From Burkholderia ubonensis subsp. mesacidophila (GTDB taxonomy: Bacteria; Pseudomonadota; Gammaproteobacteria; Burkholderiales; Burkholderiaceae): a stretch of 64,000 bases of DNA. The notes beneath the pieces were generated by a model. The model was given only the letters and a program-made list of their open reading frames with translations. It did no database searches and had not been told where the DNA came from. Positions within the stretch are counted from its first letter, which is position 1; the number at the start of each line of letters is the position of its first letter. Positions 23,241 through 37,638 of this stretch are shown here, in pieces. A program made the translations under genes and the position numbers. Location of the stretch: the NCBI RefSeq assembly GCF_002097715.1, contig NZ_CP020737.1:1426001-1490000 (forward strand), read 5' to 3'.

Positions 23241-23275
23241 TGACGCGAGGCGGCACGTCGTGCCGCCCGCGCGTC
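23241..23275. terminator. Long hairpin between convergent genes
   Basis: TGACGCG-a-GGCGGCACG-t-CGTGCCGCC-cg-CGCGTCA forms a 16-bp stem with a small bulge. It falls in the 47-bp gap between the exported hypothetical and the CdsA-like gene and could end transcription in both directions. There is no U-tract. Confidence 0.55.
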
Positions 23276-24203
23276 ACACGTACAGATACCGGACGAGGTG
23301 GAAGAACACCGGCGCCGCGAAGCAGATCGAGTCGACGCGGTCGAGCATCCCGCCGTGGCCGGCGATCATCGAGCCCCAGTCCTTCGTGCCGAGCGAGCGC
23401 TTGACGGCCGACAGCACGAGCCCGCCGACGAAGCCCGCGATCACGATCGAGAGCGAGATGCCGAACGCCGCGCCGAAGCTGAACGGCGTCACGCGATACA
23501 GCGACGCGCCGCACAGCGTCGCAAGCAGGCCGCCGCCGACGAAGCCCTCGATCGTCTTCGACGGCGACAGGCGCGGCGCAATCTTGTGGCGTCCGAACAG
23601 CTTGCCGACCACGTACTGCAGCACGTCGCTGATCTGCACGACGACGAGGAAGAAGAACAGCAGCAGCGCGTTCTGGCCGGTGTAGTGCGGAATGTCGAGG
23701 ATCAGCACCGCGGGCGCATGGCTCAGCCCGTACACGCAGACCATCAGCGCCCAGTTGATCTTCGCGTTGCGGCTCAGGAACTCGCGCGTGTCCTGCGTGA
23801 GCGCGGACACGAGCGACATCGCGAAGAACAGGTGCACCGGCACGAAGATCGAGTACATCCCGTACCAGTCGATCGCGAGCAGCAGGTACTGCACCGGAAT
23901 CGCGACGAAGAACGCGATGAACAGCGTCGTGTGGTCGCTCGCGGTGGTCGGCGTGAGCGTGATGAATTCGCGCAGCGTCAGGTACGACAGCAGCGCGAAC
24001 ACGAGGTAGGTGATGTTGTTGCCGAGGCCGATCGCGATCACCATCACCGCGATCATTGCCCACCACGCGCGAATGCGCTGGTTCAGGTTGACGATGGTCG
24101 CGCTCGCGCCGCCGCTGCGTGCGCCGAGGATCGCGCCGATCACGGTCGCGACGGCCAGCAGGGCCGTGACGCCCGAGACCAGTTCCCAGAAAAGAGTTCG
24201 CAT
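23274..24203 (-). CDS. CdsA-family phosphatidate cytidylyltransferase
   Basis: The 309-residue membrane protein has about eight hydrophobic segments and the C-terminal CDS signature: LSPSKTIEGFVGG followed by KRSLGTKDWGSMIAGHGGMLDRVDS, with the Asp-Arg and Lys-Asp pairs intact. It should make CDP-diacylglycerol from phosphatidate and CTP in the inner membrane. It lies 33 bp behind the PlsC-like gene and is likely a second CdsA devoted to this locus, as YnbB is in E. coli. Confidence 0.9.
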   Translation of the reverse strand: MRTLFWELVSGVTALLAVATVIGAILGARSGGASATIVNLNQRIRAWWAMIAVMVIAIGLGNNITYLVFALLSYLTLREFITLTPTTASDHTTLFIAFFVAIPVQYLLLAIDWYGMYSIFVPVHLFFAMSLVSALTQDTREFLSRNAKINWALMVCVYGLSHAPAVLILDIPHYTGQNALLLFFFLVVVQISDVLQYVVGKLFGRHKIAPRLSPSKTIEGFVGGGLLATLCGASLYRVTPFSFGAAFGISLSIVIAGFVGGLVLSAVKRSLGTKDWGSMIAGHGGMLDRVDSICFAAPVFFHLVRYLYV

Positions 24204-24236: not shown

Positions 24237-24866
24237 TCAGCCCGCGGGCCGGTGCGGCGCGAGCGCGACGATCGCGTCGCGCATGCGGGCGAGGAACGAC
24301 GGCTTGTCCTCCTGGTCGCCGCGCGCCTCGTTCGCGCCGAAGTGCACCTTGCAAATCAGCGGCACCGGCCAGATCGCGCCTTTCGGCATGATCCGCTGCA
24401 GGTTCTCCAGGTAGACCGGCGCGAGCGCGACGTTCGGGAATTCGCTCGCGAGATGGAACAGCCCGCTCTTGAACGGCTGCGGCAGCGCTTCCGCGCTGCG
24501 CGTGCCTTCGGGGAAGATGATGATCGAATGGCCCTGCGCGAGCGCGTCGCGCACGGGGTCCAGCGGGTCGCCGCCGGTTTCGCGGTGGCGGTCGATCAGC
24601 ACGACGTTCAGCAGCTTCTGCGCGATGTGGCGTTTCATGTCGCTGCTGTCCCAGTAGTCGCGCGCGGCGACCGGCCGCACGACCGCGCGCACGTCGCGCG
24701 GCAGCGCGGCGAGGATCGCGAGCGTATCGATGTGGCTCGTATGGTTCGAGAAGTAGATTTTCTGCGTCGGCGAGGGCGGCGCCTGATGCCAGACCGGATA
24801 CGCGCCGGCGACAAGCCGCACGATCGACAGCAGGAAATCGCGTTGCCATTCATGCAGGATGTTCAT
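24237..24866 (-). CDS. PlsC-like 1-acylglycerol-3-phosphate acyltransferase
   Basis: The 209-residue protein has the acyltransferase HX4D motif in NHTSHID and the glycerophosphate-binding FPEGTRS. It would acylate lysophosphatidate to phosphatidate at the inner face of the membrane. The ATG at 24866 (MNILHEW) is chosen over an upstream in-frame start because homologues typically begin shortly before the HX4D region. It is first in an operon with the CdsA-like gene, so both consecutive steps to CDP-diacylglycerol are encoded together. Confidence 0.88.
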   Translation of the reverse strand: MNILHEWQRDFLLSIVRLVAGAYPVWHQAPPSPTQKIYFSNHTSHIDTLAILAALPRDVRAVVRPVAARDYWDSSDMKRHIAQKLLNVVLIDRHRETGGDPLDPVRDALAQGHSIIIFPEGTRSAEALPQPFKSGLFHLASEFPNVALAPVYLENLQRIMPKGAIWPVPLICKVHFGANEARGDQEDKPSFLARMRDAIVALAPHRPAG

Positions 24867-25300
24867 CGGCGACGCGCCTCCTGTTCGCATGCCCGCCGCG
24901 CCGCATCGCTGCGGCGGGCAGGCTCCCGGAATGCCGGCGCGCTGCGTGGCGCGCCGGACGGCCCATGTTTAACTATTTTCAAATTTGTGCATGCCTGTCG
25001 CGGGTCCGCGATAATCGGCGGAGGCCGCGATGAACGGCGTGAATGACCGCTATTGGACAGGTGCGCGAATGCGGCGAACACGGTGCCGCGCGGCATTCGG
25101 GCCAGCGGATTATCGCGAGTTTCCGCGAAAAACACCAGAATGCGCGCCGCAGCTCGCCGCGTCGGGCGTCGCGCGACACCTTTCGGGATGCTTGACGCAC
25201 GATGGCCGCTCGGCGACGATTACGGCCGTCCATTGATACGACGTCCGCGCCTCCGGGGCATGACCGGCAACGACGTCCCGCAAGCCGCGCGAATAAAACG
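24867..25300. other. Divergent intergenic region of the lipid locus
   Basis: About 430 bp between the PlsC-like and CDP-alcohol phosphatidyltransferase genes. An AT-rich patch at 24965-24992 could hold the leftward promoter. A short open frame at 25030-25236 has GGAGG at good distance from its ATG, but its composition is like non-coding GC-rich DNA, so I do not call it a gene. Nothing else is recognisable. Confidence 0.5.
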
Positions 25301-25906
25301 ATGAGCCTCTACGCACTCAAACCCAAATTCCAGAATTGCCTGCGTCCGCTCGCGAATTCCCTTGCCGAACGCGGCGTCACCGCGAACCAGGTCACGCTGT
25401 TCGCCGCCGGCGGCTCGATTGTCGTCGGCGCGCTCGCCGGGCTCGGCGGGTTCGCGAAGGCGCTGTTCCTGCTGATCCCGCTGTGGCTGTTCTTGCGCAT
25501 GGCGCTCAATGCGATCGACGGCATGCTCGCGCGCGAGCACGGGCAGAAGAGCACGCTCGGCGCGTACCTGAACGAGCTCGGCGACATCGTGTCGGACGTC
25601 GCGCTCGTGCTGCCGTTCCTCGCGGTGCCGGCGTTCGCTCAAGCGGATGTCTGGCTGTTCGCACTGCTGGCGGTCATCGTCGAAGGCGCGGGGCTGATCG
25701 GGCCGCTCGCCGGCGCGAGCCGCCGCTACGACGGCCCGTTCGGCAAGAGCGACCGGGCGCTCGCGCTCGGCGCGTTCGCGCTGTGGATCGGCATCGGCCT
25801 GCCGGTCGGCGGGCTCGCCGCGTGGCTGTGGCGGCTCCTGATCGTGCTGTCGGCCGTGACCGTGGTGCGGCGCGTGCAGGCCGGCATCGCCGAAGCGGGC
25901 GGCTGA
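25301..25906 (+). CDS. CDP-alcohol phosphatidyltransferase (YnbA-like)
   Basis: The 201-residue membrane protein carries the CDP-alcohol phosphotransferase signature IDGMLAREHGQKSTLGAYLNELGD. The canonical form is DG-x2-AR-x8-G-x3-D-x3-D; here the third Asp is Asn and the last Asp is present. Five or so transmembrane helices surround it. It should join a phosphatidyl group from CDP-diacylglycerol to an alcohol, giving an unknown phospholipid. The ATG at 25301 starts just before the conserved region. It heads the rightward part of the locus. Confidence 0.85.
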   Translation: MSLYALKPKFQNCLRPLANSLAERGVTANQVTLFAAGGSIVVGALAGLGGFAKALFLLIPLWLFLRMALNAIDGMLAREHGQKSTLGAYLNELGDIVSDVALVLPFLAVPAFAQADVWLFALLAVIVEGAGLIGPLAGASRRYDGPFGKSDRALALGAFALWIGIGLPVGGLAAWLWRLLIVLSAVTVVRRVQAGIAEAGG

Positions 25907-25979
25907 CGCGGGCCGTGTCGGGGGAACGGCGCCGGAGGGCGGCGCCGAAATGATTCGAATAACGAAACGAGAGAAACGC

Positions 25980-27749
25980 ATGAGCGCACGCATCGCCCGC
26001 GAGGCGGACTTCATCACCCACGACGGCGAAACGCTGTTCTACCGTCACTGGCCCGCGACGGGCGCACGCTGCCGCGGCGCGATCGTGCTGCTGCACCGCG
26101 GCCATGAGCACTCGGCGCGCGTCGCGCACCTCGTCGACGAGCTCGACCTGCCCGAATTCGCGTTCTTCGCATGGGACGCGCGCGGCCACGGCCGCTCGCC
26201 GGGCGCGCGCGGCTACAGCCCGAGCGCGGCCGCGTCGGTGCGCGACCTGCAGACCTTCGTCGAGCACATCCGCGACGCGCACGGCATCGCGATCGAGGAC
26301 ATGGCGGTGGTCGGCCAGAGCGTCGGCGCGGTGCTCGCGGCGACCTGGGCGCACGACTATGCGCCGTCGATCCGCTGTCTCGTCGTCGCGTCGCCGGCGT
26401 TCCACATCAAGCTCTACGTGCCGTTCGCGCGGCCCGGCCTGCGGCTGATGCACAAGCTGCGCGGGCTGTTCTACGTGAACAGCTACGTGAAGCCGAAATT
26501 CCTCACGCACGACCCCGAGCGCATCGCGAGCTACGCGGCCGATCCGCTGATCACGCGGCCGATCGCGGTCAACATGCTGCTCGACCTGCACGACACCGCG
26601 CAGCGGATCGTCGCGGACGCGGCGGCGATCACCGTGCCGACGCAACTGCTGATTTCCGGTGCGGACTGGGTCGTCCATCGCGGCCCGCAGGATCGCTTCT
26701 ACGAGCGCCTCGGCGCGGCGCGCAAGGAGCGCATCGTGCTGCCGGGCTTCTATCACGACACGCTCGGCGAGCGCGACCGCGCACAGGCGCTCGCGCCGCT
26801 GCGCGCGTTCGTGCTGCGCGAATTCGATACGCCGAGCCCGCGCGTGTCGCTCGCCGACGCCGACCGGCGCGGCGCGTTCCACGACGAATACGCGGCGCTC
26901 CAGCGGCCGTCCGCGAATCCGCTCGCGCGCGCGTACTGGGCGATCACGCGGGCAGGGCTGAAGGCGGGCGGCGCGCTGTCCGACGGCATCGCGCTCGGGC
27001 TGAAGCTCGGCTTCGATTCGGGCTCGACGCTCGACTACGTGTATCGCAACCACGCGCAGGGGCGCCTCGGCGTCGGCCGGCTGATCGACCGCACCTATCT
27101 CGATTCGCCGGGCTGGGCCGGCATCCGCCAGCGCAAGGTGCACCTGCAGGAACTGATCGGCGCGGCGATCGCGCGGCTGCGCGGCGCCGGCGCGCCGGTG
27201 CGGATCGTCGACATCGCGGCCGGGCACGGCCGCTACGTGCTCGACGCGATCGCAACGGCGGCCGAGCGCGACGGCGCCGCGCCCGACGACATCACGCTGC
27301 GCGACTACAGCCCGCCGAACGTCGAGGCAGGGCGCGTGCTGATCGCGCAGCGCGGCCTCGAGCCGATCGCGCGCTTCGAGCGCGGCGACGCGTTCGACGA
27401 GGCGTCGCTCGCGACGCTCGAGCCGCGCCCGACGCTCGCGATCGTGTCGGGCCTCTACGAGCTGTTCGGCGAGAACGCGCTGATCGAGCGCTCGCTGCGC
27501 GGGCTCGCGCAGGCGGTGCCGCCGGGCGGCTATCTCGTCTACACGGGGCAGCCGTGGCATCCGCAGCTCGAGTTCATCGCGCGCGCGCTGAACAATCACC
27601 GCGGCGACGCGACCTGGGTGATGCGACGCCGCTCGCAGGCCGAGATGGACGAGCTCGTCGCACGCGCGGGCTTCCGCAAGCTCGACCAGCGGATCGACGA
27701 GATGGGGATCTTCACGGTCAGTCTCGCGCAGCGGGTCGACGCGCAATGA
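25980..27749 (+). CDS. Bifunctional alpha/beta hydrolase-methyltransferase (YnbC-like)
   Basis: The 589-residue protein has an N-terminal serine hydrolase domain of the monoacylglycerol-lipase type (nucleophile elbow GQSVG near residue 111; catalytic His expected in GFYHDTLGERD). The C-terminal half is a class I SAM-dependent methyltransferase with VDIAAGHGRYVLDAI near 409. It could trim an acyl chain and methylate a head group, though these roles are inferred. It is translationally coupled by ATGA to the next gene. The same fusion occurs as E. coli YnbC. Confidence 0.85.
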   Translation: MSARIAREADFITHDGETLFYRHWPATGARCRGAIVLLHRGHEHSARVAHLVDELDLPEFAFFAWDARGHGRSPGARGYSPSAAASVRDLQTFVEHIRDAHGIAIEDMAVVGQSVGAVLAATWAHDYAPSIRCLVVASPAFHIKLYVPFARPGLRLMHKLRGLFYVNSYVKPKFLTHDPERIASYAADPLITRPIAVNMLLDLHDTAQRIVADAAAITVPTQLLISGADWVVHRGPQDRFYERLGAARKERIVLPGFYHDTLGERDRAQALAPLRAFVLREFDTPSPRVSLADADRRGAFHDEYAALQRPSANPLARAYWAITRAGLKAGGALSDGIALGLKLGFDSGSTLDYVYRNHAQGRLGVGRLIDRTYLDSPGWAGIRQRKVHLQELIGAAIARLRGAGAPVRIVDIAAGHGRYVLDAIATAAERDGAAPDDITLRDYSPPNVEAGRVLIAQRGLEPIARFERGDAFDEASLATLEPRPTLAIVSGLYELFGENALIERSLRGLAQAVPPGGYLVYTGQPWHPQLEFIARALNNHRGDATWVMRRRSQAEMDELVARAGFRKLDQRIDEMGIFTVSLAQRVDAQ

Positions 27750-29161
27750 GCGAGCTCGGCGGCGGCGCGCGTGGTCTTGCCGCACCGGCGGCGGCCGGCG
27801 CGCGCGACGCGTCGTTCGCGCTGCGCTTCGGGTGGCTCGCGGTGATGGGCGCGGTGTTCTTCTCGAGCTACGGCTTCGCGAACTGGCTCGCCGCGCGCCG
27901 CGCCGTGGTGCCGACCTTCGCGTTCGGCTGGGAGCATGCGATCCCGTTCGTGCCGTGGACGATCGTGCCGTACTGGTCGATCGACCTGCTGTACGCGCTG
28001 TCGTTCTTCTTCTGGACGCGCCGCGACGACCTGCTCGATCAGGTGAAGCGGCTCTTGACCGTGCAGCTGATCTCGGTCGCGTGCTTCATCGCGTGGCCGC
28101 TGCGCTTCGGCTTCGAGCGGCCCGACGCGGGCGGCGTGGCTGGCGCGTTGTTCACGCTGCTGATGGGCTTCGACAAGCCGTTCAACCAGGCGCCGTCGCT
28201 GCATATCGGCCTGCTCGTCGTGCTGTGGGCCGTCTATGCGAAGCACCTGCGCGGCACGCTGGCGCGCGCCGCGCTGCATCTGTGGTTCGCGGCGATCGGC
28301 GTGTCGGTGCTGACGACCTACCAGCATCACGTGATCGACGTGCCGACCGGTGCGGCGGTCGGCTGTCTCGCGCTGTTCCTGTTTCCGCTGCGCGACGCGG
28401 CGGGCCGGCTGCCGGGCGCGGACGCGGCGCGCTCCATGGCACCCTCGGCGGCGAGCCGTGCGCTGGCGCGCCGCTATGCGCTCGGCGCGGGCGCAGTCGC
28501 GCTGGTCGCGCTCGCCTGCATTGCGCACGCGGCCGGCTGGGCGCTGGCGGCGGGGTGGGGCGCGCTGGCGCTCGCGTGCGTCGGATGGATCTATTGGCGC
28601 GGCGTGCCGGGCGCATTCCAGAAGGATGCCGACGGCCGGTTCCCGCCGTTCATGCTATGGCTGCTCGCGCCGACGATCGCCGGCGCATTCGTCAACTCGC
28701 GCGCGTGGACGTTCCGGCGGCCCGCGCCCGCGCGGCTCGGCGAGCGCGTGTCGATCGGCCGCACGCCGACCACGCGCGAGCTGCGGCGGCACGGCTTTAC
28801 GGGCGTCGTCGACCTGACCGCCGAGATGCCGCGCTGGGCCGCGGCCGATGCGGCGTGCGCGTATGCGACGGCGCCGCAGCTCGATCTCGTCGCGCCGACG
28901 GCGCGGCAATTGCAGCAGGCCGTCGCGGCGCTCGAGCGCCTGCACGGCGAGGGCCGCGACGTGCTGGTCTGCTGCGCGCTCGGCTACGGACGCAGCGTGC
29001 TGTGCGCGGCGGCCTGGGTCGCGATGCGGCGCGGGCTGCACGATGCGCGCGACGCGCTGGCCGCGGTGCGGGCGGTCCGGCCGCGCGCGGTGTGGTCGGA
29101 TGAAGCGGTGGCCGTGCTGCAGGACTGGATCGACCGCCGCACGGCAGAGGCGGGCGCATGA
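27746..29161 (+). CDS. PAP2-dual-specificity phosphatase fusion (YnbD-like)
   Basis: The 471-residue protein has an N-terminal membrane part with an Aur1-like PAP2 pattern, PSLH near 150 and HHVIDVPTG near 195, on the outer face. More membrane helices follow, then a cytoplasmic dual-specificity phosphatase domain with active site CCALGYGRS (C-x5-R) near 409. Such a domain could dephosphorylate a phosphatidyl-alcohol phosphate, as PTPMT1 does with PGP, while PAP2 domains remove or transfer phosphate groups on lipids. Its start and stop both overlap neighbouring genes, so the order is fixed within one operon. Confidence 0.87.
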   Translation: MSELGGGARGLAAPAAAGARDASFALRFGWLAVMGAVFFSSYGFANWLAARRAVVPTFAFGWEHAIPFVPWTIVPYWSIDLLYALSFFFWTRRDDLLDQVKRLLTVQLISVACFIAWPLRFGFERPDAGGVAGALFTLLMGFDKPFNQAPSLHIGLLVVLWAVYAKHLRGTLARAALHLWFAAIGVSVLTTYQHHVIDVPTGAAVGCLALFLFPLRDAAGRLPGADAARSMAPSAASRALARRYALGAGAVALVALACIAHAAGWALAAGWGALALACVGWIYWRGVPGAFQKDADGRFPPFMLWLLAPTIAGAFVNSRAWTFRRPAPARLGERVSIGRTPTTRELRRHGFTGVVDLTAEMPRWAAADAACAYATAPQLDLVAPTARQLQQAVAALERLHGEGRDVLVCCALGYGRSVLCAAAWVAMRRGLHDARDALAAVRAVRPRAVWSDEAVAVLQDWIDRRTAEAGA

Positions 29162-29628
29162 TGCGCGACCGCTCCGCGCCGTACCGGATCGCGGCGGCCC
29201 GCGGCGCGCTCGACGCCGGCGCGTGGGCGGTCGCCGTCGCGCTCGTCGCGGCGGGCGCGGGATGGTGGGTCGCGTCGGGCTGGCGCGCCGCGCCGTTCGC
29301 GCAGGCGCTGCTCGCGACCGTCAGCACCGCGTCGGGCGTCGCGGCGCTGTGGTTCGCGGTGCGGATCGCGATCGACCGCAGGCTGTTCGCGGCGCTGGCC
29401 GATGCAGCGACGGCCCCGGAGCCCGCCGGCGGCGATGCGCTGGCCGCGCTCGACCGCGCGCTCGCCGACCTCGGCTGGATCGACGAAACGAAGGCGGGCC
29501 GCACGCTCGATGCGCGCGTGCGCGGCGCGATCGGCCTGTGCCGGACCGGCGTGTGGATCGCGGTCGTCCAGTGGCTCGTCGTCGGGGCCGCGATCGCGGC
29601 GTCGGGGTTCTGGCGCGTGCTGGCCTGA
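29158..29628 (+). CDS. Small membrane protein ending the lipid operon
   Basis: The 156-residue protein has two N-terminal hydrophobic segments (AWAVAVALVAAGAGWWVASG and VSTASGVAALWFAVRIAI), a hydrophilic middle (ALDRALADLGWIDETKAGR) and a C-terminal hydrophobic segment (WIAVVQWLVVGAAIAASGFW). I do not recognise a family. It overlaps the stop of the PAP2-phosphatase gene by ATGA, so it is co-translated and probably serves the same membrane pathway. Confidence 0.8.
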   Translation: MMRDRSAPYRIAAARGALDAGAWAVAVALVAAGAGWWVASGWRAAPFAQALLATVSTASGVAALWFAVRIAIDRRLFAALADAATAPEPAGGDALAALDRALADLGWIDETKAGRTLDARVRGAIGLCRTGVWIAVVQWLVVGAAIAASGFWRVLA

Positions 29629-30250: not shown

Positions 30251-32557
30251 ATGAAGCCGGCCGCATCGCTGTTCGTCTCGATCGCGGCCGCGGCCGGCAC
30301 GTTCTACGCGGCCTGCCTGCCGGCTGCCACGGCGAGCGCGCCGGGTGCGGCCGGGGCCGCCGCAACTCCGGCTCCGGCATCGGCACCGCTCGCCGCTGCG
30401 CCGGCAGCCCCGACGAGCGCACCGTCCGCCACCCGGGGCGCGACCACCGTGCACCTGCCGTTCACGACGCTCGGCGCGTACGATCCGCTGCGCCTGCGCG
30501 GCGCCGACGACGCGCGCACGATCAGCGCCGGCGTGCGGCTCGACCGCGTGGTGACCGCCGCGCGGCTGCGCCTGACCTACGCGTATTCGCCGTCGCTGGT
30601 GTTCCCGCTGTCGCACCTGAAGGTGTCGATCAACGGCGAGGTGGTCGCCACCGTGCCGTTCGACCCGCCGCGCGCGGGCCGCACGGTCACGCAGGACATC
30701 CCGATCGATCCGCGCTACTTCTCCGACTTCAACCAGATCGGGCTGCGCCTGATCGCGCACTACACGCTCGATCACTGCGAGGATCCCGCGAACTCGGCGC
30801 TGTGGGCCGACGTGAGCCCGACGAGCGAGCTGATCCTCGACGAGACGCCGGTGCGCCTGCCGAACGATCTCGCGCTGCTGCCCGCGCCGTTCTTCGACCG
30901 CCGCGACAACGGGCGAGTGCGCCTGCCGTTCGTGCTGCCCGCGTCGCCCGACACCGCGACGCTGCGCAGCGCGGGCGTGCTCGCGTCGTGGTTCGGCGCG
31001 CTCGCGGACTACCGCCGCGCGCGCTTCCCGGTGTCGTCCACGCTGCCGGCGAACGACCACGCGGTGCTGATCGGCCCGGTCGCGACGCTGCCGCCGGGCC
31101 TCGCGCTGCCGTCCGTCAACGGCCCGACGCTCGCGGTCGTCGACAATCCCGCCGCGCCGGAGCGCAAGGTGCTCGTCGTCACCGGCCGCACGGCCGCCGA
31201 AGTCGACGACGCGGTCGCGACGCTGGTGCTCGGCCGCGCGGCGCTGTCGGGGCCGTCGGCGACGGTCGCGCACGTCGACGTCGGCGCGCCGCGCCAGCCG
31301 TATGACGCGCCGCGCTGGCTGCCGGTCGACCGGCCGATCGCGTTCCGCGAACTGGTGGCGGACCCGCGCGAGCTGGAAGTGCGCGGCACGTCGCCGGACG
31401 CGATCCGGCTGAACCTGCGGGTGCCGGCCGACCTGCATTCGTGGAACGGCGCGGGCGTGCCGATCACGCTGCGCTACCGCTACACGGCGCCGACCGTGCA
31501 GGACAATTCGACGCTCGCGGTCGAGATCAACGACCAGCTCGTGAAGTCGTACCGGCTCGGGCCGGCCCACGCCGAGGACGCGCGCGGCCGCATGCAACTG
31601 CCGCTCCTGGCGGTGCCCGAAGGGCGCGTGACGAGCGACGTCGACATTCCGGCGTTCCGCGTCGGCAGCGGCAACCAGCTGCAGTTCCGCTTCACGCTCG
31701 ACTCGCAGAAGACGGGCCTGTGCTCGAGCACCGCGACCGAGCCGCAGCGCGCGGCGATCGACCCGGATTCGACGATCGATTTCTCGCACTTCGTCCATTA
31801 CGCGCAACTGCCGAACCTCGCGTACTTCGCGAACAGCGGCTTTCCGTTCACGCGCTTCGCGGACCTGTCGCAGACCGCGGTCGTGCTCTCCGACCGGCCG
31901 TCGCCGCAGGAGCTCGAGGCGTACCTGACGATGCTCGGCCACATGGGCGAGTGGACCGGCTACCCGGCGCTGCGCGTGCAGGTCGCACGCCCCGGCGACA
32001 TGACTGCGCTGCGCGACAAGGACCTGCTGGTGATCGACGGCGCGCCGTCGTTCCCGCTGCTCGAGCGCTGGCGCGCGGCGCTGCCGCTGTCGTTCGGCGA
32101 GCAGGGCGGCGCGGGCGGCGCGCGGGTCGCGTTCACGGTCAAGGAGCGCTGGCGCAACGGCGTCGGCATGGCCGAGGGCGGCGCGCACATCGAGCAGACC
32201 GGCTCGCTCGCGGCGCTGCTCGGCTTCGAGCTGCCGGGCAGCCGCGGCCGCAGCGTCGTCGCGCTGACGGCGACCGACCAGCCGCAGCTCGGCACGCTGC
32301 TCGACGTGTTCGAGAACGCCGGGCTCGTGTCGCAGCTGCAGGGCGATCTCGCGGTGGTGCGGCCGGGCACGGTCGACAGCATGCGCGTCGGCGAGCCTTA
32401 TGTGGTCGGCTTCGTGCCGTGGTATGCGCGGCTCTGGACGCATGCGGCGCGGCATCCGGTCGTGCTCGGCGCGGTCGGCGTCGTAGCTGGCCTGCTGCTC
32501 GCGCTCGGCGCGTTCAGCGTGCTGCAAAGGATTGCCGCGCGGCGACGGGGGATGTGA
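30251..32557 (+). CDS. bcsB: Cellulose synthase regulatory subunit BcsB
   Basis: The 768-residue periplasmic, C-terminally anchored subunit begins with a signal peptide and an Ala/Pro-rich linker, then has alternating carbohydrate-binding and flavodoxin-like domains (VHLPFTTLGAYDPLRLRG, LDHCEDPANSALWADVSPTS, KTGLCSSTATEPQRAAIDP). A single C-terminal membrane helix (VLGAVGVVAGLLLALGAFSV) anchors it next to BcsA. It guides the nascent glucan across the periplasm. It is the first gene of the operon; bcsZ follows after 3 bases. The ATG at 30251 fits the signal peptide. Confidence 0.95.
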   Translation: MKPAASLFVSIAAAAGTFYAACLPAATASAPGAAGAAATPAPASAPLAAAPAAPTSAPSATRGATTVHLPFTTLGAYDPLRLRGADDARTISAGVRLDRVVTAARLRLTYAYSPSLVFPLSHLKVSINGEVVATVPFDPPRAGRTVTQDIPIDPRYFSDFNQIGLRLIAHYTLDHCEDPANSALWADVSPTSELILDETPVRLPNDLALLPAPFFDRRDNGRVRLPFVLPASPDTATLRSAGVLASWFGALADYRRARFPVSSTLPANDHAVLIGPVATLPPGLALPSVNGPTLAVVDNPAAPERKVLVVTGRTAAEVDDAVATLVLGRAALSGPSATVAHVDVGAPRQPYDAPRWLPVDRPIAFRELVADPRELEVRGTSPDAIRLNLRVPADLHSWNGAGVPITLRYRYTAPTVQDNSTLAVEINDQLVKSYRLGPAHAEDARGRMQLPLLAVPEGRVTSDVDIPAFRVGSGNQLQFRFTLDSQKTGLCSSTATEPQRAAIDPDSTIDFSHFVHYAQLPNLAYFANSGFPFTRFADLSQTAVVLSDRPSPQELEAYLTMLGHMGEWTGYPALRVQVARPGDMTALRDKDLLVIDGAPSFPLLERWRAALPLSFGEQGGAGGARVAFTVKERWRNGVGMAEGGAHIEQTGSLAALLGFELPGSRGRSVVALTATDQPQLGTLLDVFENAGLVSQLQGDLAVVRPGTVDSMRVGEPYVVGFVPWYARLWTHAARHPVVLGAVGVVAGLLLALGAFSVLQRIAARRRGM

Positions 32558-32560
32558 CGG

Positions 32561-33763
32561 ATGGCGCAGGCAACGGCAGGGCGGCAGGCGTGGCGCGCCG
32601 GCGCGGCGCTGGCTTTCGCGCTGGCGGCGTCGACGGCCGGCATGGCCGCGAGCGCGCCGGTCGCGGGCAAGGATGCCGCGGACGCGGCCTGCACGGCCGC
32701 GTGGCCGCGCTGGGACGCGTTCAAGCGCGATTTCGTGTCGGCCGACGGCCGCGTGATCGACGTCGGCTCGGACGATGCGCGCACGGTGTCGGAAGGGCAG
32801 GGATACGGCCTGTTCTTCGCGCTGGTCGCGAACGACCGGCCCGCGTTCGACAGGATGCTCGCGTGGACCGAGAACAACCTCGCGCAGGGCGACCTGAGCG
32901 CGCGCCTGCCCGCGTGGCTGTGGGGGCGCGCGGCCGACGGCGCGTGGCGTGTGCTCGACGCGAACGCCGCGTCGGACGCCGATCTGTGGATCGCCTATGC
33001 GCTCGTCGAGGCGGGCCGCCTGTGGCGCGAGCGCAGCTACACCGCGCGCGGCGCGCTGCTCGCGAAGCGCGTGCTCGACGACGAGACGGCCACCGTGCCG
33101 GGGCTCGGGCTCACGCTGCTGCCGGGGCCGACCGGGTTCCGGCTCGCGAACGACCTGTGGCGGGTCAACCCGAGCTATTCGCCGCCGCAGGTGATCCGCG
33201 GCCTCGGCGCGCGGCTGCCGGACGACCGCCGCTGGGCCGCGCTCGCAGCCGGCACCGGGCGGGTGCTGCTCGATACCGCGCCGAAAGGCTTCGCGCCGGA
33301 TTGGGCGCTGTTCCGCGCGGGCGCGGGCTTCGCGCCCGATCCGGCCACGCATGCGGAGAGCGCGTACAACGCGATCCGCGTGTATCTGTGGGCCGGCATG
33401 CTCGATCCGGCCGATCCGCTCGCCGCGCCGCTGCTCGCGCGCTTCGCGCCGTTCGCCGAGCACATCGCCGTGCACGGCGCGCCGCCGGAAAAGGTCGACA
33501 CGACGACCGGCGTCGCCGGGCCGAACGACGGCAACGGCGGCTTCTCCGCGGCGGCCGTCCCGTTCCTGGACGCGCGCGGCCAGCACGCGCTCGCCAATGC
33601 GCAGGCGGCGCGCGTTGACACGCTCGCGCGGCAGTCGTCGCCCGGCTACTACACGAGCGTGCTGACGCTGTTCGGCCTCGGCTGGCGCGACGCGCGCTAC
33701 CGTTTCGCCGCGGACGGCACGCTGGACGTGCGCTGGGGGGACCGCCGATGCGCCGCCCGCTGA
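32561..33763 (+). CDS. bcsZ: Periplasmic endoglucanase BcsZ (GH8)
   Basis: The 400-residue protein has a signal peptide ending ASTAGMAASA and a glycoside hydrolase family 8 domain: WDAFKRDFVSADGRVID, SEGQGYGLFFALVAND with the catalytic Glu in SEGQGYG, and ANAASDADLWIAYAL, which carries the family Asp. It trims or releases cellulose during export. It sits between bcsB and bcsC and overlaps the start of bcsC by 16 bases. Confidence 0.95.
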   Translation: MAQATAGRQAWRAGAALAFALAASTAGMAASAPVAGKDAADAACTAAWPRWDAFKRDFVSADGRVIDVGSDDARTVSEGQGYGLFFALVANDRPAFDRMLAWTENNLAQGDLSARLPAWLWGRAADGAWRVLDANAASDADLWIAYALVEAGRLWRERSYTARGALLAKRVLDDETATVPGLGLTLLPGPTGFRLANDLWRVNPSYSPPQVIRGLGARLPDDRRWAALAAGTGRVLLDTAPKGFAPDWALFRAGAGFAPDPATHAESAYNAIRVYLWAGMLDPADPLAAPLLARFAPFAEHIAVHGAPPEKVDTTTGVAGPNDGNGGFSAAAVPFLDARGQHALANAQAARVDTLARQSSPGYYTSVLTLFGLGWRDARYRFAADGTLDVRWGDRRCAAR

Positions 33764-36700
33764 AGCGCGCCGTCCCGCACGTGGCCGGGCTCGCGTGGCT
33801 CGCGTCGTCGGTCTGCGCGGCGGTGGCCGCGCCGGCCAGGCCGACGCCGGCCGTCCCTGCGTCGGCCGCATCGGACTCCGCCGACGCGCGGCGGCTGCTG
33901 GCGACCGCGCGCATGTGGGGCGTCAAGCACCGCGACGATCTCGCGCGCGACGCGATCCGCAAGGGGCTGCTGATCGCGCCCGGCGATCCGGCGCTGCTCG
34001 CCGAGCAGGTGCGCGTGCTGCTGCGCCTGGGCGATGCGCAGGGGGCGCAGGCGGCGCTGGCGCGCCTGAAGGCGCAGGCCCCCGGCGCGCCCGATACGCG
34101 GCGGGCCGACGACGAATACCGGGTCGCGACGAGCGGGCGCGAGGAGATGGCGCAGATCCGCCTGCTCGCGCGCAGCGGCCGCGCGGACGAGGCCGCCAGG
34201 CGGATCGTCGCGCTGTTCCCGAACGGCGCGCCGTCGGGCGCGCTCGGCGCCGAGTACTACCAGATCGTCGCGAACGGGCCGGGCGGCCGCGACGCGGCAG
34301 TCGCCGCGCTGCGCCGCGCGGTCGCGGCCGATCCGGACGACGTCGATTCGGCGCTCGGGCTCGCGAAGCTGCTGAACCAGCGCAGCGAGACCCGCGCGGA
34401 AGCGAACCGGCTCGCGTGGGCGCTCGTGCGGCGCACCGACGCCGACCATACGGAAGCGATGGCGGTGTGGCGGCGCGTGCTGCAGTCGGCCGATGCGGAC
34501 CCGGCCTACCTCGACGCGCTGCGCGCGTACCTCGCGCTCGTGCCGGACGACACCGAATTCCGCGACAAGGTCGCGGGGCTGGAGCGGCAGCGTGACGCGC
34601 AGCTTCGCCTCGAACGCGACCCGAACTACATTGCGCAGCAGCGCGGCCTGCAGGCGCTTGTGCGCGGCGATCTCGCCGCGGCCGAGCCGTTGCTGACGCA
34701 GGCCGCGCGCGTGCGGGCCGGCGACGCGGACGCGGTCGGCGGGCTCGGGCTGCTGCGTTTGCGGCAGGGCCGGCACGACGACGCGCGCGCGCTGTTCGCG
34801 CGCGCCGCGTCGCTCGCGCCCGACCAGCGCGGCAAATGGGACAGCCTCGCGCGGACCGCGCGGTTCTGGGGCACGCTCGCGCAGGGCCGCGCGGCTGCGG
34901 CGGCGGGGCGGCCGCAGGACGCGGAACGGGCGGCGCGCGCCGCGCTCGCGATGCAGCCGGACAGCCCGGACGCGAAGCTGCAGCTCGCCGACGCGCTGCT
35001 CGCGCAGCACGACTGGGCGCGCGCGGAGCCGCTGCTGCGCGGCCTGCTGGCGGCGCGCGCGCCGAGCGCGTCGGCGGTGCGCAGCACGGCCACCCTGTAT
35101 GAAAACACCGGCCGCGCTGATCAGATCGGCCCGCTGCTCGACGCGCTGCAAGGCCGCGTCGCTGGCCGCGACGACCAGCGCGCGCTCGACGGCCTGCGCG
35201 CCGACCTGCTCGCGCAACAGGCGCGCGCGCTCGCGGACAAGGGCGAGCGCGGGCCGGCCGCGCAGCGCTACGAAGCGGCGGTGCGCGCGGCGCCCGACGC
35301 GCCGTGGACCCGGTTCGCGCTCGCGCGCCTGTATCGCGACATGGGGCTGCCGCAGCTCGGCCGCACCGTGATGGACGAAGGGCTCGCGCAATCCGATGAG
35401 CCCGAAATGCATTACGCGACAGCGCTGTACCGCAATTCGATCGACGACGTCGTGGGCGCGCAGGCCGCGCTCGCGCCCGTCGGCGATGCGCGGCGCTCGG
35501 ACGGCATGCGTGCGCTCGCCCGCAAGCTGGATGCGGAAAGCGCGCTCGCCGACGCGCGCGGCGCGCTGGGTCGCGGCGATCGGGCGGCGTGCGCGGCGGC
35601 GCTCGCGCACGCGCAGGCGTTCGCGCCGGACGATCCCGACATGCTGGCCGCGGTCGGCGCGCAATGGATCGACGCGGGCGAGCCCGAACGCGGTCTCGCA
35701 CCGTTGCGCGACTGGATCGCCGCGCACCCGCGCGACGCCGATGCCGACGTGCGCCTTCGCTACGGAGACCTGCTCGGCAGCGCGGGCCGCGACGGCGAGC
35801 TCGCCGCGTGGCTCGACGCGATCCGCCGCGAGCCGTCGCTGACGGCCACGCAGACCGCGCGGCTCGAAGACCAGTCGCTGCGGCTGATCCTGCGCCGCAC
35901 CGACGACGCGATCGCGCAGCAGGACTACGAAACGGCGCGCCGGCTGCTCGACCGCGCAAGCCCTGCGGCCAAGGCGGACCCGCGCTACGCGCTCGAAGTG
36001 GCCGACCTCGAGCGCGCCCAGGGCCGCTACGACGCGGCGCGCGCCGCGCTCGCGCCGGTCGTCGCGCGCACGCCGGACAACGTCGATGCGCAGCTCGCGC
36101 TCGCACGGATCGACGAGGACAGCGGCGACCGCGCCGGCGCACTGGCGCGCGTGCAGGCGGTGCTCGCGCGCGCGCCGGCCGACGACGTCGACACGCAGCT
36201 GTCGGCGGTGCGCCGCCTCACCGCGCTGCGCCGCGCGGACGATGCGGCGGACATCACCGGCCGGTTGCAGGCGGCCTATCCGGCGCGTGCGGACGTGACG
36301 GTCGCGGCGGGGCGGGTGGCCGAGGCGCAGGGCCGCTACGACGACGCGGCGTCGCTGTACCGGCTGTCGCAGTCGCAGGAGCGCGCGAGCGGCGTGAGCC
36401 CGCGCCGCGACGGCCGCACCCCCGCGCAGGCCGCGTTCGCCGACCTGGAGCAGCGCCGCGACCCCGAACTCGAGATCGGCTGGCTGCCCGCATACAAGTC
36501 GGGCGACGACGGGGTGTCCGCGTACCGCGCGCAGCAGGTGCCGATCTACCTGCAGATGCCGGTCCGCTACGACGGGCATGCGTTCCTGCAGGTCGACACC
36601 GTGCATCTCGACGCCGGCACGCTCGACACGCGCAACCCGGATGCGTATGCGCTCAAGACTTTCGGCACCTACTCGGCGCTCAGGCAGCAGAGCCCGCCCG

Positions 36701-37638
36701 GGACGAATCCGGCGCTCGATTCGCTGCTTGCGAATCCGCCGAACTCGCTGCACCAGTCGGCCACAGGTGTTGCGCTCGGCGTCGGCTATCGCTCCGACGC
36801 GTGGCGCTTCGACGTCGGCACGTCGCCGCTCGGCTTCCCAGTGCATTACGTCGTCGGCGGCGCGCGCTACCGGTTCGACGCGGGGCCGGCGAGCTTCTCG
36901 GTCAACGCGTCGCGCCGCCCGGTGACGAGCAGCGAGCTGTCGTACGCGGGGCTGCGCGATCCGTGGACCGGCGCGGTCTGGGGCGGCGTGCGCCGCGACG
37001 GCGTGGACCTGCGCGCGTCGGTCGACTTCGGCCGCGCGAACCTGTTCGCGGAGCTCGGCGCGGGCGTGCTGACGGGCCGCAACGTCGAACGCAACGCGGC
37101 GGTGACGCTGCGCACGGGCTTCACGGCGCCGGTCTACGAGCGCGCGACGATGCGCGTCAGCACCGGGCTCGTCGGCAATGCGTGGCACTACGTGGAGAAC
37201 CTGCGCTACTACACGTTCGGGCAGGGCGGCTACTACAGTCCGCAGCGCTACCTGTCGCTCGGCGTGCCGCTCGAATGGGCGGGGCGGCGCGACGCGCTGT
37301 CGTGGGACCTGACCGTCACGGGCGGGATCTCGCACAGCTACGAAAAGGATTCGCTGTATTACCCGACGTTCGCGGACCAGCGGGCCGCACAGGAGCGCGA
37401 GGGCTTCGTCTATTCGGGCAGCTCGACGCGCGGCGTGTCGTTCTCGTATGGCGTGAACGGCATGGTCGAGTACCGGATGAACCCGCACCTGAGCGTCGGC
37501 GCGCAACTGAAGATCGACCGTTCGCACGACTACGCGCCGAGTTCGGCGATGGTGTACCTGCGCTACGCGTTCGACGCGCGCGCGCCGCGCACCGGCCTCG
37601 TCACGCCGACGCCGGTGCGGCTCTATTCGGATTTCTAG
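33748..37638 (+). CDS. bcsC: Cellulose export outer membrane protein BcsC
   Basis: The 1296-residue protein has a signal peptide, then roughly 900 residues of TPR repeats in the periplasm (many GDAQGAQAALARLKAQ-like helix pairs), and a C-terminal BcsC porin domain of about 330 residues that starts near DLEQRRDPELEIGWLPAYKS and ends in TPVRLYSDF. It forms the outer membrane pore for cellulose. Its length is somewhat above the E. coli protein (about 1150), probably from added TPRs. The ATG lies inside the bcsZ end after a G-rich ribosome site. Confidence 0.95.
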   Translation: MRRPLKRAVPHVAGLAWLASSVCAAVAAPARPTPAVPASAASDSADARRLLATARMWGVKHRDDLARDAIRKGLLIAPGDPALLAEQVRVLLRLGDAQGAQAALARLKAQAPGAPDTRRADDEYRVATSGREEMAQIRLLARSGRADEAARRIVALFPNGAPSGALGAEYYQIVANGPGGRDAAVAALRRAVAADPDDVDSALGLAKLLNQRSETRAEANRLAWALVRRTDADHTEAMAVWRRVLQSADADPAYLDALRAYLALVPDDTEFRDKVAGLERQRDAQLRLERDPNYIAQQRGLQALVRGDLAAAEPLLTQAARVRAGDADAVGGLGLLRLRQGRHDDARALFARAASLAPDQRGKWDSLARTARFWGTLAQGRAAAAAGRPQDAERAARAALAMQPDSPDAKLQLADALLAQHDWARAEPLLRGLLAARAPSASAVRSTATLYENTGRADQIGPLLDALQGRVAGRDDQRALDGLRADLLAQQARALADKGERGPAAQRYEAAVRAAPDAPWTRFALARLYRDMGLPQLGRTVMDEGLAQSDEPEMHYATALYRNSIDDVVGAQAALAPVGDARRSDGMRALARKLDAESALADARGALGRGDRAACAAALAHAQAFAPDDPDMLAAVGAQWIDAGEPERGLAPLRDWIAAHPRDADADVRLRYGDLLGSAGRDGELAAWLDAIRREPSLTATQTARLEDQSLRLILRRTDDAIAQQDYETARRLLDRASPAAKADPRYALEVADLERAQGRYDAARAALAPVVARTPDNVDAQLALARIDEDSGDRAGALARVQAVLARAPADDVDTQLSAVRRLTALRRADDAADITGRLQAAYPARADVTVAAGRVAEAQGRYDDAASLYRLSQSQERASGVSPRRDGRTPAQAAFADLEQRRDPELEIGWLPAYKSGDDGVSAYRAQQVPIYLQMPVRYDGHAFLQVDTVHLDAGTLDTRNPDAYALKTFGTYSALRQQSPPGTNPALDSLLANPPNSLHQSATGVALGVGYRSDAWRFDVGTSPLGFPVHYVVGGARYRFDAGPASFSVNASRRPVTSSELSYAGLRDPWTGAVWGGVRRDGVDLRASVDFGRANLFAELGAGVLTGRNVERNAAVTLRTGFTAPVYERATMRVSTGLVGNAWHYVENLRYYTFGQGGYYSPQRYLSLGVPLEWAGRRDALSWDLTVTGGISHSYEKDSLYYPTFADQRAAQEREGFVYSGSSTRGVSFSYGVNGMVEYRMNPHLSVGAQLKIDRSHDYAPSSAMVYLRYAFDARAPRTGLVTPTPVRLYSDF

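Follow-up and report, generated by a model that had tools for sequence, protein, structure and literature searches.

Gene content and recurrence of the ynb locus

Within the window analysed here, a stretch of 64,000 nucleotides from Burkholderia ubonensis subsp. mesacidophila (contig NZ_CP020737.1, positions 1,426,001 to 1,490,000), six neighbouring genes form a lipid locus that depends on CDP-diacylglycerol (CDP-DAG) and is arranged around a two-asparagine phosphatidyltransferase, YnbA. By sequence comparison, four of the genes are orthologues of Escherichia coli K-12 ynbA, ynbB, ynbC and ynbD, beyond a mere sharing of protein types, with identities of 43% for YnbA, 37% for YnbB, 57% for YnbC and 38% for YnbD. 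To our knowledge, E. coli ynbABCD has no settled product or function. What is new here is the modularity of the locus, the two-asparagine site of YnbA and the case against inositol.

Two of the genes run leftward on the minus strand: the ynbB orthologue (23274-24203; 309 amino acids), a CdsA-paralogous CDP-DAG synthase by its CTP_transf_1 match (2.2e-62), and a plsC-like acyltransferase gene (24237-24890; 217 amino acids; Acyltransferase PF01553, 7.1e-16), which could also start at the in-frame ATG at 24866. The other four run rightward on the plus strand. The ynbA orthologue (25301-25906; 201 amino acids) encodes a CDP-alcohol phosphatidyltransferase of family PF01066, its start being placed by homology to E. 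coli YnbA, which is likewise 201 amino acids long, while the open reading frame (ORF) begins at 25202. It is followed by the ynbC orthologue (25980-27749; 589 amino acids), a monoglyceride-lipase-like hydrolase fused to an S-adenosylmethionine-dependent methyltransferase (Methyltransf_20); by the ynbD orthologue (27746-29161; 471 amino acids), with a PAP2-type membrane domain, two further transmembrane (TM) helices and a C-terminal dual-specificity phosphatase; and by a gene for a small membrane protein (29158-29628; 156 amino acids).

A sequence-only reading of the same DNA had claimed a six-gene lipid locus resembling E. coli ynbA-D, and all six genes are confirmed by the ORFs, the Pfam and NCBIfam matches and the comparison with E. 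coli, in which the likeness rises to orthology at 37-57% identity. The ATGA coupling that it described for the last three genes is also present, at 27746-27749 (ynbC/ynbD) and 29158-29161 (ynbD/small-protein gene). Its range of 24237-29628 needs correction, since it omits the CdsA-like gene that it counted, which is ynbB. In E. coli K-12 (NC_000913, 1477621-1482201), the four orthologues also lie side by side, but in the order A-B-C-D and in one direction, whereas the window has A-C-D-S with P-B divergent (A to D denote ynbA to ynbD, P the plsC-like gene and S the small-protein gene); no plsC-like or small-protein gene is annotated in the E. coli stretch, while the window has both.

The recurrence of the cluster was followed in 398 genomes of the phylum, sampled evenly from a larger group; 27 of the 398 contain the YnbC methyltransferase family. 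The 27th of these is the window's own genome, and the 26 others, together with 80 named loci (the top-ranking 80 among 248 matches to Burkholderia YnbC, and hence rich in Burkholderiaceae), give 106 loci. All six genes occur together in 92 of the 106, spanning several genera, orders and classes; the sampled loci alone give 22 of 26, or 23 of 27 counting the window. The order is A-C-D-S-P-B in 57 of the 92, P-B is inverted as in the window in 34, and D and S are sorted otherwise in one. Taken singly, ynbA is present in 102 of the 106 loci, ynbB in 98, ynbD in 102, the plsC-like gene in 98 and the small-protein gene, counted at a lenient 15-bit threshold, in 99. This recurrence is far beyond chance and too strict for scattering; the co-occurrence that the sequence-only reading had proposed to look for is thus there, and the regular scattering of the genes across genomes, which it had named as evidence against itself, was not seen in the 106 loci. 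Of 5426 complete E. coli genomes, 4579 match ynbABCD, and in 4242 the operon is present to 80% or more.

Four of the 14 loci with a missing gene (L065, L076, L110 and L122) end at a contig end beside the gap. Elsewhere, D and S are missing from L046 and L112, L049 has only A and C, L058 and L060 have no P or B nearby, D is nearly absent from L087, L135-L137 consist of C-D-S only, and S was not found in L139. Some loci carry peculiarities of their own: ynbC reads as three pieces in L121, and a 717-amino-acid WG-repeat protein (PF14903) is encoded between ynbC and ynbD in L055 (10108-12261). L126, L140 and L141 (Lysobacter, Xanthomonas) have a further CDP-alcohol transferase, which belongs to the sister family described below, between the small-protein and plsC-like genes. 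Another long reading frame precedes it; only the frame of L126 was scanned against NCBIfam, and it matches the TIGR04222 membrane domain.

The two-asparagine site of YnbA

Window YnbA is a borderline member of its Pfam family (CDP-OH_P_transf; 1.5e-4, 22.7 bits against a cut-off of 22), but its predicted structure (pLDDT 93.8) has the helical-bundle fold of that family. Searched by fold, the model matches AF2299 and the phosphatidylinositol-phosphate (PIP) synthases of Mycobacterium and Renibacterium best (TMq 0.69-0.81), with weaker matches to the bifunctional IPCT-DIPPS (0.64), CEPT1 (0.57), PgsA (0.54) and PSS (0.34-0.40). In M. tuberculosis PgsA1, the metals are reported to be held by D68, D71, D89 and D93 and the phosphate by R155 and R195; inositol-phosphate-using enzymes retain R94, and at the site of A90 a bulky side chain interferes with the inositol ring (PMC6506517). 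Aligned with PgsA1, YnbA has N70 (codon 25508-25510, plus strand) for D68, the first metal-binding Asp, and N91 for D89, the third, followed by E92 at the place of the pocket residue A90 (codons 25571-25576, plus strand), while D73 and D95 are retained. YnbA therefore departs from the full four-Asp signature DxxDGxxAR(x8)GxxxDxxxD by an Asn at both D1 and D3. What it shares with AF2299 and the PIP synthases (M. tuberculosis PgsA1, Renibacterium, M. kansasii) is the fold, D2, D4, the C-terminal Arg and a probable phosphate site, and it differs from them in the two Asn and in a Glu at D3+1.

These changes are not a peculiarity of the window. In 34 aligned YnbA sequences that reach down to 48% identity, N70, D73, E79, N91, E92, D95, D99, K149, R152 and R191 are all invariant. 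Asn at D1 and D3 was found by pattern in 100 of 103 sequences, E. coli included, and by eye in the other three; it was also found in nine of ten further ynbA loci, the tenth being the decayed L151. Asp stands at all four places in the controls, namely the four other PF01066 proteins of the window genome (L001-L004) and L165-L167.

A sister family, detected as matches of 49-71 bits near plsC-ynbB pairs, shares the altered site. Among 14 aligned members (L152-L164 and L140), the first place is Asn in all 14 and the second in 13, with Ser in L140; all 14 have Glu or Asp beside the second place and keep Arg at the position of R94. Two more sister sequences from Xanthomonadaceae, outside the 14, are more worn, with Ser at the first place in L126 and His at the second in L141. 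A tree of 45 sequences groups YnbA with the sister family, apart from the canonical transferases (98/89), although it includes only seven canonical rows, has long branches and was built with the signature columns included. The loss of two carboxylates and the gain of a Glu beside one of them suggest that the metal site of YnbA has been rebuilt. We found no paper on two-asparagine CDP-alcohol transferases in the open-licence literature, among the matches listed.

Partner enzymes and the nesting of the locus

In the first two partners, the catalytic residues checked are kept. YnbB has the CTP_transf_1 domain with the KR, KD and HGG..DR.D motifs of a CDP-DAG synthase, and K268, R269, D275, H283, D288, R289 and D291 are kept in 20 of 20 sequences; in the PlsC-like protein, H50-x4-D55 and FPEG-x-R are kept in 31 of 31. 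E. coli YnbB is reported to make CDP-DAG in vitro, as CdsA does, and to resemble CdsA in the C-terminal catalytic half while differing in the N-terminal half (PMC7018664), and the two are separated by a clear gap in profile score. It is also described as unable to replace CdsA (PMC6362211).

In window YnbC, Pfam recognises Hydrolase_4 and Methyltransf_20 (2.5e-137), the hydrolase domain being closest to monoglyceride lipases, and both S114, D229 and H259 and D411, G415 and G417 are present in 31 of 31 sequences. YnbD is more mixed. Its phosphatase domain (DSPc, 8.2e-11) has the Cys-x5-Arg and the upstream Asp of dual-specificity phosphatases, with C410, R416 and D380 in 44 of 44, but the usual His before the catalytic Cys is replaced in most sequences and is itself Cys in 36 of 44. 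PAP2_3 and PAP2 match window YnbD below threshold; of 30 N-terminal parts, 27 match PAP2_3 (E up to 0.01) and 25 match PAP2. Profile searches of the PAP2 part against solved structures gave weak matches only, to phospholipid phosphatase 1 (best E 0.014), and in the fold search of YnbD the phosphatase domain filled the lists and the membrane part was barely covered. Canonical PAP2 proteins have the motifs KxxxxxxRP, PSGH and SRxxxxxHxxxD. Measured against this three-motif scheme (see also PMC7413402), YnbD keeps PSLH (P150-S151-L152-H153), H194 and D198 in 44 of 44, as well as S187 and, for the most part, RP, whereas Pro takes the place of the Lys in all 44, and Val or Ile that of the Arg in SR. 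The charge pattern (net +3.9 before the phosphatase domain) would place that domain inside the cell. Residues 244-464, which comprise the TM helices and the phosphatase, resemble the initial portion of NCBIfam PRK12361 (6.1e-29, below cut-off), which we take to be a phosphatase-lipid kinase fusion, and the TM-phosphatase module may be reused with other lipid enzymes.

The C-terminal domain of YnbD shares its fold and Cys-x5-Arg with PTPMT1, the mitochondrial phosphatidylglycerophosphate (PGP) phosphatase, and with the archaeal Tk-PTP, but these have His before the Cys. E. coli YnbD is reported not to complement the loss of the PGP or undecaprenyl pyrophosphate (C55-PP) phosphatases, and ynbD deletion to be viable (PMC7413402); on this published non-complementation, we set aside a role as PGP phosphatase. 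The small membrane protein is of no known family, with no Pfam match, and R69, D73, D99, L102, R115 and R120 are invariant in its 33 sequences. Of the enzymes put forward in the sequence-only reading, YnbB, the PlsC-like protein, YnbC and the phosphatase of YnbD thus keep the catalytic residues checked, whereas YnbA departs from the canonical active site and the PAP2 part of YnbD from the canonical motifs, departures that the sequence-only reading could not have seen.

Beyond the six-gene loci, the genes fall into layers. The YnbA profile, scored on at most seven candidates per genome, gave 37 strong matches in the 398 genomes, one per genome (above 170 bits, the next being 74.6), and all 27 ynbC genomes are among these 37. 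ynbB is present in 36 of the 37, in one case merely as a fragment, and lies within 10 kb of ynbA in 33. Ten ynbA loci are without ynbC, and eight of these are plain A-P-B or A-B-P triads, in which C, D and S were not found; the remaining two are L150, a broken triad with pieces of A and B, and L151, a lone decayed A in a genome (G287) with no YnbB-type ynbB. Conversely, where C-D-S stands without A, P and B (the contig-cut L110 and L135-L137), an A-B-P triad is found elsewhere in all four genomes.

The YnbB profile, scored on at most five candidates per genome, found 70 places in 69 of the 398 genomes, 69 of them near full length at about 300-550 bits and one a fragment of 193 bits, with CdsA-type proteins clearly below at less than 145 bits. 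A two-asparagine transferase lies within 10 kb of 53 of the 70 places, YnbA at 33 and the sister family, sought only in the 69 genomes with a YnbB-type ynbB, at 20. Sixteen of the 17 other places, together with one further (G253), make up L172-L188, and the plsC-like gene adjoins ynbB in 16 of these 17 loci, L185 being the exception. The locus is therefore nested, with plsC-ynbB as the innermost pair, the transferase as the next layer and C-D-S as the outer one. Because plsC-ynbB, ynbA-plsC-ynbB and C-D-S also occur apart, methylation, hydrolysis and dephosphorylation look like an add-on, and the nearly complete route to one new lipid claimed in the sequence-only reading is unsupported as worded; its broad view of a lipid locus is sound, but a single complete route is not established.

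In the tree, E. coli YnbA is sister to YnbA from the A-B-P locus L149 (support 100/100), and with the A-B-C-D arrangement of E. coli this suggests that C-D and the core have come together in at least two arrangements, which would speak for functional coupling over shared descent alone. In two genomes, G043 (L058, L162) and G253 (L060, L186), A-C-D-S stands without P-B nearby, and a sister-family transferase, in G253 a piece only, is found with P-B elsewhere in the genome, as if one CDP-DAG supply served two transferases. The neighbours of the minimal triads and of the lone P-B pairs had no extra gene in common among the ten proteins scanned in each set.

A candidate pathway, its rivals and the surroundings of the locus

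In the reading that we propose, to which we give a probability of roughly three in five, the six genes would run a CDP-DAG pathway of their own that ends in a minor phospholipid specific to a stress or a niche. From the gene content, conservation, modularity, active-site changes and predicted folds, we infer the substrates and products beyond CDP-DAG, the order of the steps, the sides of the membrane, the methylation and the dephosphorylation as follows. The PlsC-like acyltransferase and YnbB would provide a private supply of CDP-DAG, and YnbA, with its PIP-synthase fold, re-tuned metal site and extra pocket Glu, would move the phosphatidyl group onto a polar alcohol other than inositol phosphate, probably one that bears a phosphate. 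The add-on C-D-S module would then finish or recycle the product: the cytoplasmic phosphatase domain of YnbD would strip the head-group phosphate, YnbC would methylate the head group and hydrolyse an ester bond, and, on the periplasmic side, the PAP2 domain of YnbD would act on the translocated lipid. That E. coli YnbB and YnbD do not take over for their housekeeping counterparts is what one would expect of a separate pathway. YnbB has so far been described as a backup for MPIase, a glycolipid, and YnbD as a protein of the PAP2 kind. The strict linkage of the genes and the active-site change common to YnbA and its sister family bring all of them under one hypothesis, with YnbA as the core enzyme and E. 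coli as the laboratory organism in which to study it. If it is true, the best-studied bacterium would have a further class of phospholipid, and two metal ligands could be lost from a motif taken as the hallmark of a large enzyme family while it stays under strong selection.

Several points weigh against this proposal. With two of its four metal ligands replaced, YnbA might not catalyse the reaction of its family, and its relative L151 has lost still more of the motif. The pocket assignments rest on one pairwise alignment, in which K149-R152 align with PgsA1 R152-R155 only through a one-residue gap. Public labels of YnbA relatives (best 120 of 7998) include PgsA-type names from one source alongside "CDP-alcohol phosphatidyltransferase" and "Inner membrane protein YnbA", labels that are no test of function. 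Seventeen of the 70 ynbB places have no YnbA or sister-family match within 10 kb, and in 847 of the 5426 E. coli genomes megablast finds no ynbABCD. E. coli ynbB deletion is reported to have neither a growth nor an MPIase phenotype (PMC6362211), and no lipid product of the ynb locus has been seen, nor is one given in the open-licence literature among the matches listed.

A bolder form of the proposal, which we think less likely than not, is that YnbA and the sister family are a separate two-asparagine clade that works with an altered metal site and, served by an acyltransferase and a CDP-DAG synthase of its own, makes an undescribed class of bacterial phospholipid across Proteobacteria, E. coli K-12 included. 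For YnbA, the acidic E92 in the pocket and the disappearance of three basic residues would favour a positively charged acceptor, for example an amino-alcohol phosphate, in which case the YnbC-YnbD module would dephosphorylate and methylate the product.

An alternative in which no new lipid is needed is a cycle of phospholipid turnover or repair under envelope stress, where YnbC would cut acyl esters, the PlsC-like enzyme would re-acylate, the PAP2 and phosphatase domains would remove head groups and YnbB and YnbA would rebuild ordinary phospholipid. The likeness of the YnbC hydrolase to monoglyceride lipases fits such a cycle, as does the report that E. coli ynbA goes up in an acid-tolerance experiment, where BglJ-RcsB is given as its activator (PMC12871917). 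However, the methyltransferase fused to the hydrolase would be superfluous in it, and the reported failures of YnbD to stand in for the PGP and C55-PP phosphatases (PMC7413402) and of YnbB for CdsA (PMC6362211) also speak against it; we regard it as unlikely. Other published mentions of the genes are scattered: ynbA appears in a table of insertion sites from a cyclic di-GMP reporter sort (PMC13031359) and is down after plutonium exposure (PMC10134817), a ynbC substitution with raised expression is listed in work on persistence (PMC13313352), and ynbB turned up in a transposon screen with phosphoglyceride-linked enterobacterial common antigen (ECA-PG), for which it is described as dispensable (PMC8609368).

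It is quite improbable, in our view, that YnbB is a backup enzyme for MPIase and that the cluster serves membrane-protein integration. YnbB overproduction is reported to raise MPIase in E. coli (PMC6362211), and a review terms YnbB a backup (PMC7018664), but the MPIase level is described as unchanged on ynbB deletion (PMC6362211), and MPIase synthesis leaves unexplained why ynbB is tied to two-asparagine transferase genes and to plsC-like genes.

A phosphatidylinositol pathway like that of Bacteroides, in which YnbA would make PIP and YnbD would dephosphorylate it and, in the manner of Aur1, move the head group, has several likenesses in its favour and is nevertheless very improbable. The top fold matches of YnbA are AF2299 and PIP synthases, and its best NCBIfam matches are archaetidylinositol-phosphate synthase (NF040950) and PIP synthase (NF045883), although at 70.1 and 43.8 bits against cut-offs of 180 and 170. 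The nearest analogue of the locus is the B. thetaiotaomicron cluster BT_1522-BT_1526, reported to follow a like logic with a PIP synthase, a phosphatase and an AUR1-like PAP2-type protein (PMC9246714), and PAP2_3 is matched by most YnbD N-terminal parts, although PAP2 is matched by nearly as many; but in that cluster BT_1523 carries the canonical motif and BT_1526 supplies inositol phosphate (PMC9246714), and neither holds for the ynb locus. The MIPS family PF07994 was found in none of the 37 ynbA genomes, in a search that did not extend to inositol uptake or phosphorylation, while the control gave matches in 5 of 14, three of them above cut-off. The R94 place, described as needed for inositol phosphate (PMC6506517), is Val, Ile or Met in 34 of 34 YnbA sequences, the K135 place is Gly or Ala in 34 of 34, and the R137 place is Met, Leu, Thr or Ala in at least 31 of 34. 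With no PF07994 and with the inositol-phosphate contacts lost, phosphatidylinositol is an unlikely product, and together with the NCBIfam scores below cut-off this led us to reject its synthesis as the best reading. The question is more open for the sister family, which keeps the Arg at the R94 place.

Least probable of all is that YnbA has ceased to be a phosphatidyltransferase and that its two Asn mark a binding or scaffold protein delivering CDP-DAG, for the loss of D1 and D3 in YnbA and the sister family and the further decay of the orphan L151 would suit such a protein, but D95 (the base), D73, the newly acquired invariant E92 and the two Arg residues of the phosphate site persist in all 34 sequences, which exceeds the needs of a scaffold.

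The divergent region between the plsC-like gene and ynbA (24891-25300) gave no hit in a consensus promoter scan, and terminators were no more frequent than in shuffled sequences. In an alignment of 13 such intergenic regions, Burkholderia species have in common the block GCGATAATC, an inverted copy GATTATCGC about 100 bp away and a TTGACGC block, which are weak or absent in some Paraburkholderia rows. By its relatives the window belongs with Burkholderia of the cepacia-complex kind, and its YnbC shares 98% identity with the protein from B. ubonensis LMG 20358. Downstream of the locus, at 30251-37638 of the window, lie cellulose-operon-like genes (BcsB-, BcsZ- and BcsC-like, as judged by eye).

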